From positions 1-27,306 of the forward strand of contig NZ_JACRYT010000030.1 of the NCBI RefSeq assembly GCF_014333425.1: 27,306 nucleotides of DNA. Reading direction: 5' to 3'. The notes beneath the pieces were generated by a model. It saw nothing but the letters and a program-made list of their open reading frames with translations. It was not told the origin of the DNA and searched no databases. How positions within the stretch are numbered: position 1 is the stretch's first letter; each line of letters starts with the position of its first letter. A program made the position numbers and the translations under genes. The stretch is from Zhenpiania hominis (GTDB lineage Bacteria; Bacillota; Clostridia; Peptostreptococcales; Anaerovoracaceae). Below are positions 3,312-21,805 of this stretch, piece by piece.

Positions 3312-3345
3312 AAAAAAGCCTGACTGTCCGGACAAATGCCCAGAC
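3312..3345 (-). terminator. Riboswitch-controlled attenuator upstream of fhs
   Basis: On the minus strand GTCTGG (3340-3345) can pair with the GTCAGGC segment at 3318-3324 around an inner TGTCC/GGACA stem, followed by six T residues (3312-3317). The 5' arm overlaps the CCGTC that the aptamer needs for its pseudoknot. Ligand binding should therefore block the terminator and switch fhs on. Confidence 0.7.
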
Positions 3346-3409
3346 GGCCGGCTCGCTTCCATTATACTTCATGTGGTCAATTCCACTTTTATCCGTCAGT
3401 CGTATAACA
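3338..3409 (-). promoter_or_regulatory. ZTP (pfl-motif) riboswitch aptamer
   Basis: The minus-strand leader of fhs has the conserved parts of the ZTP riboswitch in order. The outer stem is TTATAC with GTATAA. Then come GACTGACGG, a small hairpin GTGG/CCAC (3373-3386), TGGAAGCGAGCC, and the 3' signature CCGTCTGGGC. The pseudoknot strand GACGG (3393-3397) is an exact complement of CCGTC (3343-3347); as I recall, most family members have a GGCGG/CCGCC-like version, so this would be a compensatory change. The aptamer family is known to sense ZMP/ZTP and to sit in front of fhs and purine genes. Confidence 0.88.
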
Positions 3410-3414
3410 GTTTA

Positions 3415-12916: not shown

Positions 12917-13177
12917 CTAACGAGGTTCTACGATCAGTTTGATCGCGGTTCGTTCTTCTCCTTCGATTTCAATGTCAGTAAAAGCGGGAACCGTTACGAG
13001 GTCAATCCCGCTTGGCGCCACAAAGCCCCTGGCGATGGCAATAGCCTTTACCGCCTGATTGAGCGCTCCTGCTCCAATCGACTGAATCTCTGCTCCGCCC
13101 TTTTCTCTCAATACTCCTGCAAGTGCTCCTGCCACCGAATTCGGATTTGATTTTGCTGATACTTTTAAAACTTCCAC
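12917..13177 (-). CDS. spoVS: Stage V sporulation protein S
   Basis: SpoVS is a small Alba-fold protein needed at late stages of sporulation in Bacillus and is one of the best conserved proteins of its size. The 86 residues start with MEVLKVSAKSNPNSVAGALA and contain GAGALNQAVKAIAIARG and FVAPSGIDL, ending AIKLIVEPR; this is nearly the family consensus. The open frame reaches 13207, but the true start is a GTG at 13177. A perfect AAGGAGG (13186-13192) lies eight bases before it, inside the first codons of the longer frame, and family members begin at this residue. A TATAAT-like -10 is near 13264-13271 with TTGCTA at 13291-13296, but the spacing (19-21) is poor. A sporulation sigma factor may be used instead. 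Confidence 0.95.
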   Translation of the reverse strand: MEVLKVSAKSNPNSVAGALAGVLREKGGAEIQSIGAGALNQAVKAIAIARGFVAPSGIDLVTVPAFTDIEIEGEERTAIKLIVEPR

Positions 13178-13353
13178 GTATACGTCCTCCTTAATCTCAT
13201 TGATCATTTACGCTTCCCTTCCGGGTTTTTCAAAACTTCTGTGAGGCTGTGCCTCCTGTATCAATTATATAATCCAAAAATGCCATTTTATAGCAAAAAA
13301 ATACGACAAATTCCCTCAAAAATTTCTTTTTTCTAAAATTTTAAGACAACCCC
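13178..13353. other. Divergent intergenic region between spoVS and the candidate small RNA
   Basis: The region is AT-rich. It holds the spoVS leader, with a small GAGGC/GCCTC hairpin near 13235-13250, and the weak spoVS promoter candidate described with that gene. Nothing else is visible. Confidence 0.4.
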
Positions 13354-13382
13354 TTGATTTTTTTGACATGAGCGGCTATAAT
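13354..13382 (+). promoter_or_regulatory. Strong promoter of the candidate small RNA
   Basis: TTGATT (13354-13359) and a perfect TATAAT (13377-13382) are separated by exactly 17 bases. The expected transcript start is near 13389, about 50 bases before a strong terminator stem and not directly before any gene. Confidence 0.75.
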
Positions 13383-13388
13383 CAAATT

Positions 13389-13483
13389 GTGGTTATCCCC
13401 CTGATAACCTCATTAATCTCTAATCCCAATACCCCTTTTGAACAAAACAGACTGCTCCCCTGCAGTCTGTTTTGTTTTTTGTA
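13389..13483 (+). ncRNA. Candidate stand-alone small regulatory RNA with repeated CCCCT motifs
   Basis: The segment has its own promoter (13354-13382) and ends in a perfect terminator (13442-13482), giving an RNA of about 95 nt. A first hairpin, GGTTATC/GATAACC (13391-13409), has the loop CCCCT. An unpaired linker follows and carries CCCCT at 13432-13436. The terminator loop is TCCCCT (13457-13462). So the same C-rich pentamer is exposed three times. Exposed C-rich motifs that pair with AGGGG-type Shine-Dalgarno sequences are a known feature of Bacillota sRNAs such as RsaE/RoxS. The next gene has its own -10 element after the terminator. No gene-like start with a ribosome binding site lies inside. 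An attenuated leader of the downstream exonuclease gene is the main alternative. Confidence 0.6.
13442..13482 (+). terminator. Strong intrinsic terminator of the candidate small RNA
   Basis: AACAAAACAGACTGC (13442-13456) and its exact complement (13463-13477) form a perfect 15-bp stem with loop TCCCCT, followed by a T run. No annotated plus-strand gene lies upstream for it to terminate. Confidence 0.9.
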
Positions 13484-13507
13484 ACTGTTTCCCGACGGAA
13501 TATTATA

Positions 13508-13541: not shown

Positions 13542-14588
13542 ATGGAACACATTACCAATCAACTGACAGCGAAATTATATACATCACGGGCGTTTCGATT
13601 TTATTTCGGAGATATGAAGCTGGCAGCCGCTGATATTGAGACAACCGGTCTCAGCCCCCGCAGCAGCCGCTTTGTCCTTGGCGGCCTTCTGCTCCCTTCG
13701 GCGCCGCAGGAAACTCAGGCAGAGGGAACCCTGCGGGTACATCAGTTCTTCGCCGAGACCCTGGAGCAGGAGCAGGAAACCCTGTCCGCGTATTTGTCCG
13801 CGCTGAAAAAATCGGATGTGCTCCTTACTTATAACGGACAGCGCTTTGATCTGCCCTTTCTCAAAGGACGTGCCGGAGAAGCGGCGAAGCAGCTTCCCTT
13901 TAATCTGGATCTCTTTCTTCTTGTCAAAAACTACTCCCCTATTCGGAAGTTTCTTCCCAATCTGAAGCAGAAAACAGTGGAAAATTATATGGGACTCTGG
14001 AGCAGCCGAAAAGATGAGATTTCGGGAAAAGAAAGCGTGGAGCTTTATTATCGTTATCTTGCGGAAGGAGATCCTTCTGTTAAAAGAACCATCCTTCTCC
14101 ATAATCACGATGATATTGTCCAGCTTTATCGTCTCCTTCCGGTACTGGAAAAAATGGATCTGCACCGGGCCATGTATCACATGGGCTTTCCGATCCGCGC
14201 AAAAGCTTCCGAGATTTCCAATCTGGCCGTAGAAAAAGTTCAACTGTCTGGAAACGAGCTGAATGTCTCCGGACGCCAGGGCGCGAAAACCGTTTCCTAC
14301 CATTGTTTTGAGCATGAAGGAATTCCTTGCTTCGCAGTATTCAAACCCGATTCGAAAACATTCCGAATTTCCCTGCCGCTGCTCCGGCAGGCAGGTCTTA
14401 CGTTGGTGGATCTGCGAGCCATGCGGATGGATACAGAGCCGTTCCATAAGTATCCTTCCTGCCAGGAAGGCTTTCTGATTTTGGAGAACGGGGGAGAAAA
14501 AAATTATCTGGAAATCAATCATTTTATAAAAGCGTTTTTAGAAAGGATGTTAAATCAATGGATTACAAAAAAACAGCAGCAGCGATAA
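13542..14588 (+). CDS. YprB-like ribonuclease H-like (DEDD) exonuclease
   Basis: This 348-residue protein has an RNase H-like exonuclease domain of the YprB group (residues about 25-200). The acidic residues of the DEDD type are in place: Asp31 and Glu33 in AAADIETTGL, Asp103 in YNGQRFDLPFL, and the final motif LLHNHDDIVQLYRLLP with His187 and Asp190/191. It probably trims single-stranded nucleic acid ends; the natural substrate is not known. The C-terminal 150 residues lack a known domain. ATG 13542 follows GAGGAAAG. It is the first gene of a unit with proA, whose start overlaps its end by 31 bases. In Bacillus, yprB lies beside a helicase gene, which is absent here. Confidence 0.82.
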   Translation: MEHITNQLTAKLYTSRAFRFYFGDMKLAAADIETTGLSPRSSRFVLGGLLLPSAPQETQAEGTLRVHQFFAETLEQEQETLSAYLSALKKSDVLLTYNGQRFDLPFLKGRAGEAAKQLPFNLDLFLLVKNYSPIRKFLPNLKQKTVENYMGLWSSRKDEISGKESVELYYRYLAEGDPSVKRTILLHNHDDIVQLYRLLPVLEKMDLHRAMYHMGFPIRAKASEISNLAVEKVQLSGNELNVSGRQGAKTVSYHCFEHEGIPCFAVFKPDSKTFRISLPLLRQAGLTLVDLRAMRMDTEPFHKYPSCQEGFLILENGGEKNYLEINHFIKAFLERMLNQWITKKQQQR

Positions 14589-19840: not shown

Positions 19841-21784
19841 CTAACGTTCCGTTTTATTTTTCTTTAATATTGCAAGTAAAACCATTCCAACTACTGCGCC
19901 TACTACCAAGGCCAGCAGGTAGCCGCCTACATTTTCAACAACAGGGAACACGAAGATTCCGCCATGAGGAGCTCGCAATCCGCATCCCATTGCCATCGAA
20001 ATTCCCCCTGCTACAGCAGATCCAACTACACAGGATGGAATCACTCTCAGAGGATCAGAAGCCGCGAATGGAATCGCGCCTTCTGTAATAAAGCACAGTC
20101 CCATAATATAATTGACCACGCCTGCTTTCCGCTCTTCCGCTGTAAACTTATTCTTGAAAAAGGTAGTAGCCAAAGCAATTGCAATCGGAGGCACCATTCC
20201 GCCGATCATAACAGAAGCCATGATATTAAAGCCGCCGGAAGCAATCGCCGCTGTACCAAATACATATGCCGCTTTATTAAATGGACCGCCCATATCGATT
20301 GCCATCATACCTCCCAGGAGACATCCAAGGAGAATCTGGCTGGCGCTTCCCATCGAATTCAATCCGTTTGTAATAGCAGTATTGATAGCTCCTACCGCCG
20401 GGTTGATAAAGCACATGAACGCGCCCATCAAAGTGATTCCCAAAAGCGGCAGAATCAGAACCGGCAGCATGCTTTCCAGGCTGTCCGGAAGGAAGGAAAA
20501 CACCTTCTTCAAAAGCAGTACGATAAAACCGCCTACAAAGCCTGCAATCAACGCTCCCAGGAATCCCGATACGGCTGACGCGTCTCCGGTTACATTGGCA
20601 AAGGTACATCCCAGAGTCGCGATAGATCCGCCTACAAAACCGACCGCAAGTCCCGGCCTATCCGCAATACTCCTTGCGATATAACCTGCCAGAACCGGCA
20701 TCATAAAGTTAAACGCCACGTTTCCGATGCTTTTGAAGAACGCCGCTGCCGCTGTGTATGTCCCGAAATCACTGTTTCTTGGCGCGCCTGCGATTGTATC
20801 GATCAGGAAGGCCAGGGCAATCATAATGCCTCCGCCGATAACAAATGGAAGCATGTAGGATACGCCGTTCATCAAATGTTTGTAAATCTGATGCCCAATC
20901 CCCTCTTTTCCAACGCTGTCCGCATTCGTCGTCTTCGCCCCCTCATAATGGAAAACCGGAGCTTCTTTGTCTATAATTTTCTTAATCAGTTCTTCCGGCT
21001 TGTTGATTCCAGCCGACACATTTGTTTTATATACCCGTTTTCCATCAAAACGCACCATTTCGACATTCTTGTCCGCGGCGATGATAATGCCGTCAGCCGC
21101 TTCGATTTCCTCAGGAGTCAGTACGTTCTTCGCTCCCCCGGATCCGTTTGTTTCCGCTTTGAGAGAATACCCCATTTCTCTTGCTTTTTTCTCCAGGGCT
21201 TCCGCGGCCATATAGGTGTGCGCGATTCCCGTCGGGCAAGCGGTTACTGCCAGAATCCGGTATCCTTCTTTCTTTCCGTCCTTTTCTGATTCTTGTTTCT
21301 CGCCTGCGGCTTCGGCCTCTTCCGGATAACGTTCTTTTTCCTTGCGATCAATGGCTTCTAAAAATGCTTCCGGGGTCTGCGCTTTCAGTAATTCTTCCCG
21401 CAGCTCCATATCCATCAGCAGTGTCATAAGTCTTGACAGAACTTCCAGATGAAGATCTCCGTCCTCAGGAGCCGCAATCATAAAGAGAATCGTGGAAGGC
21501 TTTCCATCCGGAGCTTGGTAATCAATTCCCTCCGGCACTGTAATTGCAACCAAACCAGCCTGTTTTACGGCTGCGCTCTTGGCATGAGGAATTGCAATTC
21601 CTTCTCCCACCGCGGTTGTACCTTCCTCCTCTCTAGCGAGAATTCCTTTCCGGTATTCTTCCTTATCCGCCAGATTTCCCGCCTCATCATGCAAACGGAT
21701 CATGAGGTCAATCGCGTCTGCCTTTGTACTTAGTTTCGCCCCCGGCATAATGGATTTCTTTTTCAGTAAATCGACAATTCGCAT
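19841..21784 (-). CDS. fruA: PTS fructose transporter subunit EIIABC
   Basis: FruA imports fructose and releases it inside as fructose 1-phosphate. The 647 residues hold three domains in the order A-B-C. EIIA (1-148) has His67 in GIAIPHAKSAAV. An acidic, charged linker (150-172) leads to EIIB (174-275), with Cys183 in VTACPTGIAHTYMAAEAL. EIIC (about 300-642) has some eight membrane segments and the typical GGPFNKAAYVFG and GLRAPHGGIFVFP motifs. RBS GGAGGGGG lies before ATG 21784, 21 bases after fruK. Its product is phosphorylated again by FruK. Domain order and length are those of the Bacillota fructose transporter. Confidence 0.97.
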   Translation of the reverse strand: MRIVDLLKKKSIMPGAKLSTKADAIDLMIRLHDEAGNLADKEEYRKGILAREEEGTTAVGEGIAIPHAKSAAVKQAGLVAITVPEGIDYQAPDGKPSTILFMIAAPEDGDLHLEVLSRLMTLLMDMELREELLKAQTPEAFLEAIDRKEKERYPEEAEAAGEKQESEKDGKKEGYRILAVTACPTGIAHTYMAAEALEKKAREMGYSLKAETNGSGGAKNVLTPEEIEAADGIIIAADKNVEMVRFDGKRVYKTNVSAGINKPEELIKKIIDKEAPVFHYEGAKTTNADSVGKEGIGHQIYKHLMNGVSYMLPFVIGGGIMIALAFLIDTIAGAPRNSDFGTYTAAAAFFKSIGNVAFNFMMPVLAGYIARSIADRPGLAVGFVGGSIATLGCTFANVTGDASAVSGFLGALIAGFVGGFIVLLLKKVFSFLPDSLESMLPVLILPLLGITLMGAFMCFINPAVGAINTAITNGLNSMGSASQILLGCLLGGMMAIDMGGPFNKAAYVFGTAAIASGGFNIMASVMIGGMVPPIAIALATTFFKNKFTAEERKAGVVNYIMGLCFITEGAIPFAASDPLRVIPSCVVGSAVAGGISMAMGCGLRAPHGGIFVFPVVENVGGYLLALVVGAVVGMVLLAILKKNKTER

Positions 21785-21805
21785 GTTCTTTCCCCCTCCA
21801 GTAAC

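Follow-up and report, generated by a model that had tools for sequence, protein, structure and literature searches.

Between a divergent gene on the minus strand (12917..13207), which from its sequence we take to be spoVS-like, and a downstream gene on the plus strand (13542..14588), presumed by the first-pass annotation and by ourselves to encode an exonuclease, the window – the whole stretch of 27,306 nucleotides analysed – holds on its plus strand a compact transcription unit predicted to yield a small RNA of about 95 nt (13389..13483, the start being placed 7 nt past the -10). The promoter lies where the first-pass annotation had put it: a -35 TTGATT at 13354-13359 and, after a 17-nt spacer, a -10 TATAAT at 13377-13382, which together (TTGATT-17-TATAAT) are of the sigma-A type as judged from their letters. 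Hairpin 1 (13391..13409) consists of seven pairs, 13391-13397 with 13403-13409, closing the loop CCCCT (13398-13402); it is followed on the same strand by a nearly invariant, unpaired core of 23 nt, ATCTCTAATCCCAATACCCCTTT (13416..13438), which contains a second CCCCT at 13432-13436, and then by a terminator hairpin (13440..13477) with the loop TCCCCT at 13456-13461, stem pairs that co-vary among relatives, and a T run behind it. The terminator is as strong as had been claimed, its helix (13440-13455 with 13462-13477) comprising 15 Watson-Crick pairs and one G.U, and is absent from the output of a simple terminator scan. The third CCCCT motif, announced at 13458-13462, is found one position earlier, at 13457-13461; the other two stand exactly as described. 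Minimum free energy for the window RNA is -33.3, against a mean of -9.0 (sd 2.6, z -9.4) for 200 dinucleotide shuffles. A second promoter-like match (TTGTAA-16-TATTAT, 9/12) at 13479-13506, past the terminator, agrees with the earlier suggestion that the next gene may have a -10 of its own. Elsewhere in the window a ZMP/ZTP riboswitch was recognised on the minus strand (3331-3413, 56.8 bits), ahead of a gene that we take to resemble formate-tetrahydrofolate ligase; another ZTP match occurs in L017, one of the loci described below.

The case that this element is more than a product of chance rests on its conservation. Relatives were found by scanning genome contigs with the downstream exonuclease protein as query, which returned 17 loci at 37-46% protein identity. 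In eight of the 17 (L001-L007 and L017) a near-identical RNA precedes the exonuclease by no more than about 0.3 kb, and in eight more (L008-L014 and L016) by about 0.65-0.7 kb; locus L015 starts within the RNA. The window and 14 of these loci (L009, L011 and L015 omitted) were aligned as A1, and from its 15 sequences model R1 was derived; the window copy, itself among the model's sources, matches at 13387-13483 with 96.6 bits. In the family of genome G001, R1 located the RNA in 146 of 197 genomes (E <= 0.01), and in the order it did so in at least 184 of 297 (E <= 0.001), the latter being a lower bound because the search missed eight Clostridioides-type genomes, all with a copy. The phylum sample gave matches in 6 of 398 genomes, from a search that scored ten candidates per genome and says nothing on absence elsewhere; the convincing ones are G001 and G012, both of G001's family, and four weak matches (E 0.003-0.009) that mainly retained the terminator were not counted. 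We name the order Peptostreptococcales because of the Clostridioides-type genomes and Acetoanaerobium noterae (Peptostreptococcales; Filifactoraceae), which carries one copy in L106 (NZ_CP154629.1). On the evidence of sequence, then, the RNA of about 95 nt is a family strongly conserved across the order Peptostreptococcales.

Most carriers hold a single copy: 142 of the 146 in G001's family gave one match, and 17 genomes of the order sample gave two to four, which often lie in tandem, about 180-250 bp from start to start. Tandem copies, two to three per locus, can be seen in L086, L087, L088, L090, L097, L098 and L099, each with its own promoter and most with an exact Spo0A box at -27. Searches of phage records returned no match to the RNA and viral contigs no exact core, and a plasmid collection gave one match only, NZ_CP154629.1, a record of 2.6 Mb that is filed as a plasmid and appears to be the A. 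noterae chromosome. One copy, that of G779 (L089 3000-3095, L253), lies beside a terminase-like gene in an apparent prophage, with the usual promoter and box missing. In G103 a second core-like stretch with two mismatches (G103:C1:1687510-1687528) sits inside an inverted repeat, distant from the RNA gene.

The surroundings of the RNA bear on whether it acts in cis, as a leader or attenuator of the gene downstream. Within a group the same gene often follows it, as the exonuclease does at close range in the eight loci above and an asparaginase-like gene does at others, and to that extent a leader would fit. Between groups, however, neighbours and their orientation differ – presumably an exonuclease in one, asparaginase and cysteine desulfurase in another, a ychF-like gene or a prophage elsewhere – and the RNA stays constant; moreover it occurs in tandem, and in the window's family each unit is closed by a constitutive-looking terminator with a T run. 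We regard a role as leader as very unlikely.

Conservation is concentrated in structure and in one stretch of sequence. All 15 sequences of A1 share an invariant 32 nt that extends from hairpin 1 (3' arm) as far as the terminator, the terminator stem varies by compensating changes, and 8 of 23 pairs show two-sided changes, a number equalled by none of 500 shuffles. In the larger alignment A3 (99 homologues from 94 sources), which was fitted to the model and is so biased towards the model's structure, 96.9% of cells pair, two-sided changes affect 21 of 22 pairs, and two-sided cells number 259, compared with a shuffled mean of 46 and with 20-37 in slid versions. When the homologues were folded singly, hairpin 1 was present in the minimum free energy structure of 99 of 99 and the 3' hairpin in that of 93; CCC occurs in 98 of 100 hairpin-1 loops counted. 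Most conserved of all is the 23-nt core, AUCUCUA(A/U)UCCCAAUACCCCUUU, which is nearly invariant whereas spacer and terminator vary: it reads AUCUCUAAUCCCAAUACCCCU in 66 of 99 homologues, carries U instead at the variable position in 18, and departs in other ways in 15. The covariance model that the first-pass annotation had suggested building from relatives thus gave order-wide matches and stems with two-sided changes, and the hairpins it described are conserved. The terminator-loop CCCCT is no general trait, CCCC being present there in at most 55 of 99 homologues – about 51, given that four of those loops consist of core letters. Conservation, covariation, and a promoter and terminator of its own nonetheless argue for what had been proposed, a small RNA that forms its own unit and exposes C-rich segments.

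These same alignments speak to the possibility of a short protein-coding gene, in the frame VVIPLITSLISNPNTPFE.... In the window copy no stop interrupts this frame, and 30 of 99 homologues can likewise be read from a 5' start codon across the core. In 57 of 99, however, it closes ahead of the core end, and in 12 the 5' start codon is missing; the core falls in all three frames (61, 24 and 14) relative to the 5' end; the L008 type carries one-base deletions in the loop; the stems co-vary; and there is no space for a ribosome-binding site. With the core in three frames and so few copies open we rejected the coding reading, which is scarcely credible, in favour of an RNA.

Upstream of the RNA a second signal emerges. 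The 0A box, with the 7-bp core TGTCGAA, is documented for Spo0A of B. subtilis and C. difficile in passages of PMC3485338. Among the 197 genomes of G001's family, taken as the same draw in which the RNA was counted, the Spo0A_C domain scores at least 120 bits in 63, is found only in weaker form in 39 and gives no match in 95. The RNA is present in 55, 33 and 58 of these, respectively, and is thus commoner with Spo0A (55/63 vs 58/95, p 0.0003), though not tied to its presence, draft genomes being liable to hide either. Its presence in 58 of 95 genomes with no Spo0A_C match means that sporulation is not its sole role. The weak matches (below 120 bits, 39 of 197) give the impression of a Spo0A in decay or put to another use.

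Boxes were counted in two sets of loci. In the first, comprising 39 loci represented by their best-scoring copies and scanned over 100 bp upstream, exact TGTCGAA was found in 13 of 21 genomes with Spo0A, in none of the 15 without and in 1 of 3 with the weak form; with one mismatch allowed the figures were 21 of 21, 1 of 15 and 2 of 3. Box offsets in this set were often about 11, 21, 30, 51 and 71 of 100, which by eye resembles helix-turn spacing. The second set, chosen after the result of the first was known, went on down the list to another 20 genomes with and 20 without Spo0A, passing over G092 and G524 at contig edges. Here 7 of the 20 with Spo0A had the exact box and none of the 20 without (p 0.008; 0.39 and 0.15 expected by chance), and boxes within one mismatch occurred in 17 of 20 against 5 of 20 (chance expectation 6.2 and 3.6), three of the 20 Spo0A genomes having no box even at that tolerance. 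The effect was smaller than in the first set and still held. Pooled, the exact box is present in 20 of 41 loci with Spo0A and 0 of 35 without, counts that ignore relatedness; it is missing in about half of Spo0A genomes. Across L086-L106 – a tally that includes many close relatives, and in which L101 and L102 were missed by the search pattern – 17 of 27 copies have the exact box between -35 and -10, at position -27 counted from the hairpin, another two have it at -47, four carry it with one mismatch at -27/-28, and L104, L106 and the prophage copy show no box at -27/-28. The RNA family's promoter, so far as these matches define it, tends to carry exact 0A boxes in genomes with Spo0A. The window promoter itself has one-mismatch boxes only and no exact TGTCGAA: a Spo0A-box-like TGTCGTA at 13302..13308 on the minus strand, of a kind that chance also produces (expectation 6.2 per 20 regions), and TGTCAAA at 13362..13368, likewise minus, in the -35/-10 spacer near the place of the box in relatives L048 and L054.

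The notion that the RNA's C-rich segments serve as an anti-Shine-Dalgarno sequence fails, in generic form, for the linker. G103, a single-contig relative with no Spo0A_C match, offered 1,561 start regions from a simple gene call, and the target prediction at Shine-Dalgarno regions advocated by the first-pass annotation, run on these starts, revealed no excess: 37 starts paired with the linker at <= -18 kcal/mol, compared with 15 to 152 for 12 shuffled linkers and 46 for the reversed one. The G103 target lists hold mixed genes, and seed counts at its starts are confounded by Shine-Dalgarno enrichment because they were compared with the whole genome only. A conserved near-perfect target was likewise rejected, a search of 99 genomes for the 19-nt complement with at most three mismatches (matches tallied by hand) giving 43 non-self matches against 32 for the reversed pattern, as was 16S rRNA, at -17.6 against -15.7 to -24.8 for ten shuffles.

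The hairpin-1 loop tells a different story from the linker. Of 32 spo0A start regions of the order, a set that includes close relatives as well as G037, where no RNA was found, 26 contain a run of five G and 17 a run of six. Among background gene starts a G5 run is seen in 3 of 111 in one set and in 8 of 66 in another, and no start has G6; the G5 counts in two further background sets, spo0A included, are 3 of 12 and 8 of 23. In spo0A starts of other orders (a sample of 29 of the best 30 loci among 101 matching genomes) G5 is found in 10 of 28 and G6 in 2 of 28, against Peptostreptococcales p 0.0005 and 0.0002. Duplexes between loop and spo0A were computed for 14 of the 32 starts, the cost of opening the stem being left out and nine pairs using the window's RNA segment, two that of G630, as stand-ins. 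In nine of the 14 at most one background start does as well as spo0A. Weaker ones were obtained for G685, G742 and G567 (4 of 66, 8 of 66 and 7 of 110 background starts as good), and those of G527 and G067 are unremarkable (38 and 11 of 110 as good). These last two have the RNA promoters closest to the window's, and their spo0A starts are devoid of a G-run; the nearest relatives do not support spo0A as a predicted target in the window's own genus. The linker, unlike the loop, is not outstanding against spo0A: even in its best case, 6 of 110 background starts match it. Within the window, a minus-strand gene at 19841-21784, presumably fructose-PTS-like, has the start site GGAGGGGG (21784-21800), which is complementary to the C-loop and is a candidate target.

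It might be argued that the RNA chiefly binds protein, an Hfq-like chaperone or a titrated regulator, that the core is the protein's site and that pairing with mRNA is secondary. The core is indeed more invariant than pairing through a short seed requires, and neither a conserved near-perfect target nor a 16S rRNA partner emerged; against this, the C-loop matches the spo0A G-run, and C-rich segments pair in both LhrC and SpoY, according to sections of PMC4132741 and PMC10267692. We consider binding of protein an unlikely main function. The reading that we favour, and hold with fair confidence, is that of a C-rich trans-acting sRNA, probably wired to Spo0A, that blocks G-rich ribosome-binding sites.

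The search extends towards C. difficile. G742 is a genome from the order surveyed above, and in its family a tpi primer sequence finds an exact match in 8 of 71 genomes; because of this match the eight are taken to be Clostridioides. Each contains one core with three mismatches, set behind TTGATTTTTGTGTCGCATTTTGTTATAAT in the same hairpin arrangement, and the spacer holds TGTCGCA, one letter away from the exact box; seven small genomes of G742's family have no core within three mismatches. The copy in L243 lies between two genes, presumably an amino-acid transporter ATPase and a cysteine desulfurase, with a small ORF after the RNA. By these resemblances the RNA family probably includes the genus of C. 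difficile. The C5 loop of the Clostridioides homologue is complementary to the G6 start site of spo0A, its nt 5-14 forming with UGGGGGGAUU a predicted duplex of -15.0 kcal/mol that 4 of 66 background starts equal.

These properties recall SpoY (nc020), which in C. difficile binds G-rich motifs resembling ribosome-binding sites and represses spo0A, and which is encoded as a piece of the 5'UTR of an unknown gene (portions of PMC10267692). The putative likeness lies in the homologue's C-loop, which could pair with the spo0A start, and in the small ORF that follows the RNA. The differences are that spo0A protects nt 30-41 of SpoY, as given in part of that paper, a poor fit to loop nt 8-12 and core nt 43-52 here, and that the reported course of SpoY – a peak in early to mid exponential growth, a drop towards early stationary phase and a later rise (same excerpts of PMC10267692) – is only partly what a Spo0A-repressed RNA would show. 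That the Clostridioides homologue is SpoY strikes us as a serious possibility, if one falling somewhat short of even; it may instead correspond to a different sRNA from the set detected in chimeras with spo0A.

From these data we infer transcription, pairing, repression and a direction of control by Spo0A, as follows. A sigma-A-type promoter would drive synthesis of an RNA of about 95 nt, closed by an intrinsic terminator, in which a C-rich hairpin loop and the unpaired, pyrimidine-rich core of 23 nt are exposed. The loop, with the 5' side of its stem opened, and perhaps the core, would pair with G-rich ribosome-binding sites and so block translation. In lineages with Spo0A, Spo0A~P would bind boxes in or adjoining the promoter and set the level of the RNA, repression being likeliest where a box falls between -35 and -10; lineages without Spo0A would often retain the RNA and drop the box. 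For many carriers the likely targets include the mRNA of spo0A, and this would give rise to a feedback loop. The putative boxes, the order-wide spread and the predicted match of C-loop and spo0A all go beyond the first-pass annotation.

A bolder proposal, which we put forward tentatively and think rather doubtful, is that the loop is ancient and order-wide: Spo0A~P would control, and probably repress, the sRNA through the boxes, and the C-loop of the sRNA would repress spo0A at a co-conserved G-run, SpoY being one instance; where Spo0A is absent the boxes would be gone and the RNA kept for an older, probably metabolic role that explains the core. How the decision to sporulate is taken in clostridia that lack the Bacillus phosphorelay is an open question. 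Post-transcriptional control of spo0A by sRNAs in C. difficile was reported in 2023 (PMC10267692). An RNA kept across the order, Clostridioides included, with a Spo0A link at its promoter and, in many members, a match to the spo0A transcript would open that question to tests in harmless relatives; there would be a new Rfam family; and one could follow across many species how a regulator disappears together with its sites at an sRNA gene that is itself kept.

It remains to place the RNA among known systems. CsfG (RF00516, Bacillaceae) is transcribed under sigma F and G, unlike the sigma-A-type unit described here. It resembles our RNA in its link to sporulation, in its CU-rich stretches – conserved in loops and between helices of this ylbH element, as parts of PMC3574147 describe – and in being the same kind of RNA; we rejected identity since there is no RF00516 match at the RNA and the Rfam consensus, read on the opposite strand, differs. 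None of 99 family genomes scored above the CsfG cut-off, while B. subtilis does. Rfam at gathering level gave no match at the RNA in the window or in 12 carrier loci, which bears out the earlier statement that no family could be recognised.

Small RNAs that block start sites with C-rich segments are a known kind, represented by LhrC, RsaE, SprD, FsrA and RNAIII (excerpts of PMC4132741); for RsaE/RoxS and FsrA such blocking is described in parts of PMC8216469 and PMC4132741. RsaE/RoxS and FsrA are absent from the ten Rfam matches at E <= 10, and their regulators, ResDE/SrrAB and Fur, set them apart. The closest parallel is LhrC (RF00616), the best match of the permissive scan, which covers its full length (1-111) with 26.1 bits (E 0.07), well below the gathering score of 110. 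Both RNAs display a C-rich motif in loop A, in the linker and in the terminator loop, the third being present here in the window and in roughly half of the homologues. Portions of PMC4132741 describe how LhrC opens stem A to pair with a G-rich start site, and the match of loop and 5' arm in our RNA suggests that its stem would open in the same way. LhrC of Listeria is controlled by LisRK and present in five copies (passages of PMC4132741 and PMC13350326); the core sequence and Spo0A boxes of the present RNA are not LhrC features. Among the matches listed for the core sequence or its reverse complement in open-access main texts (supplements may differ) were only unrelated papers. What is new is the RNA family, its spread, its near-invariant core and its probable wiring to Spo0A.
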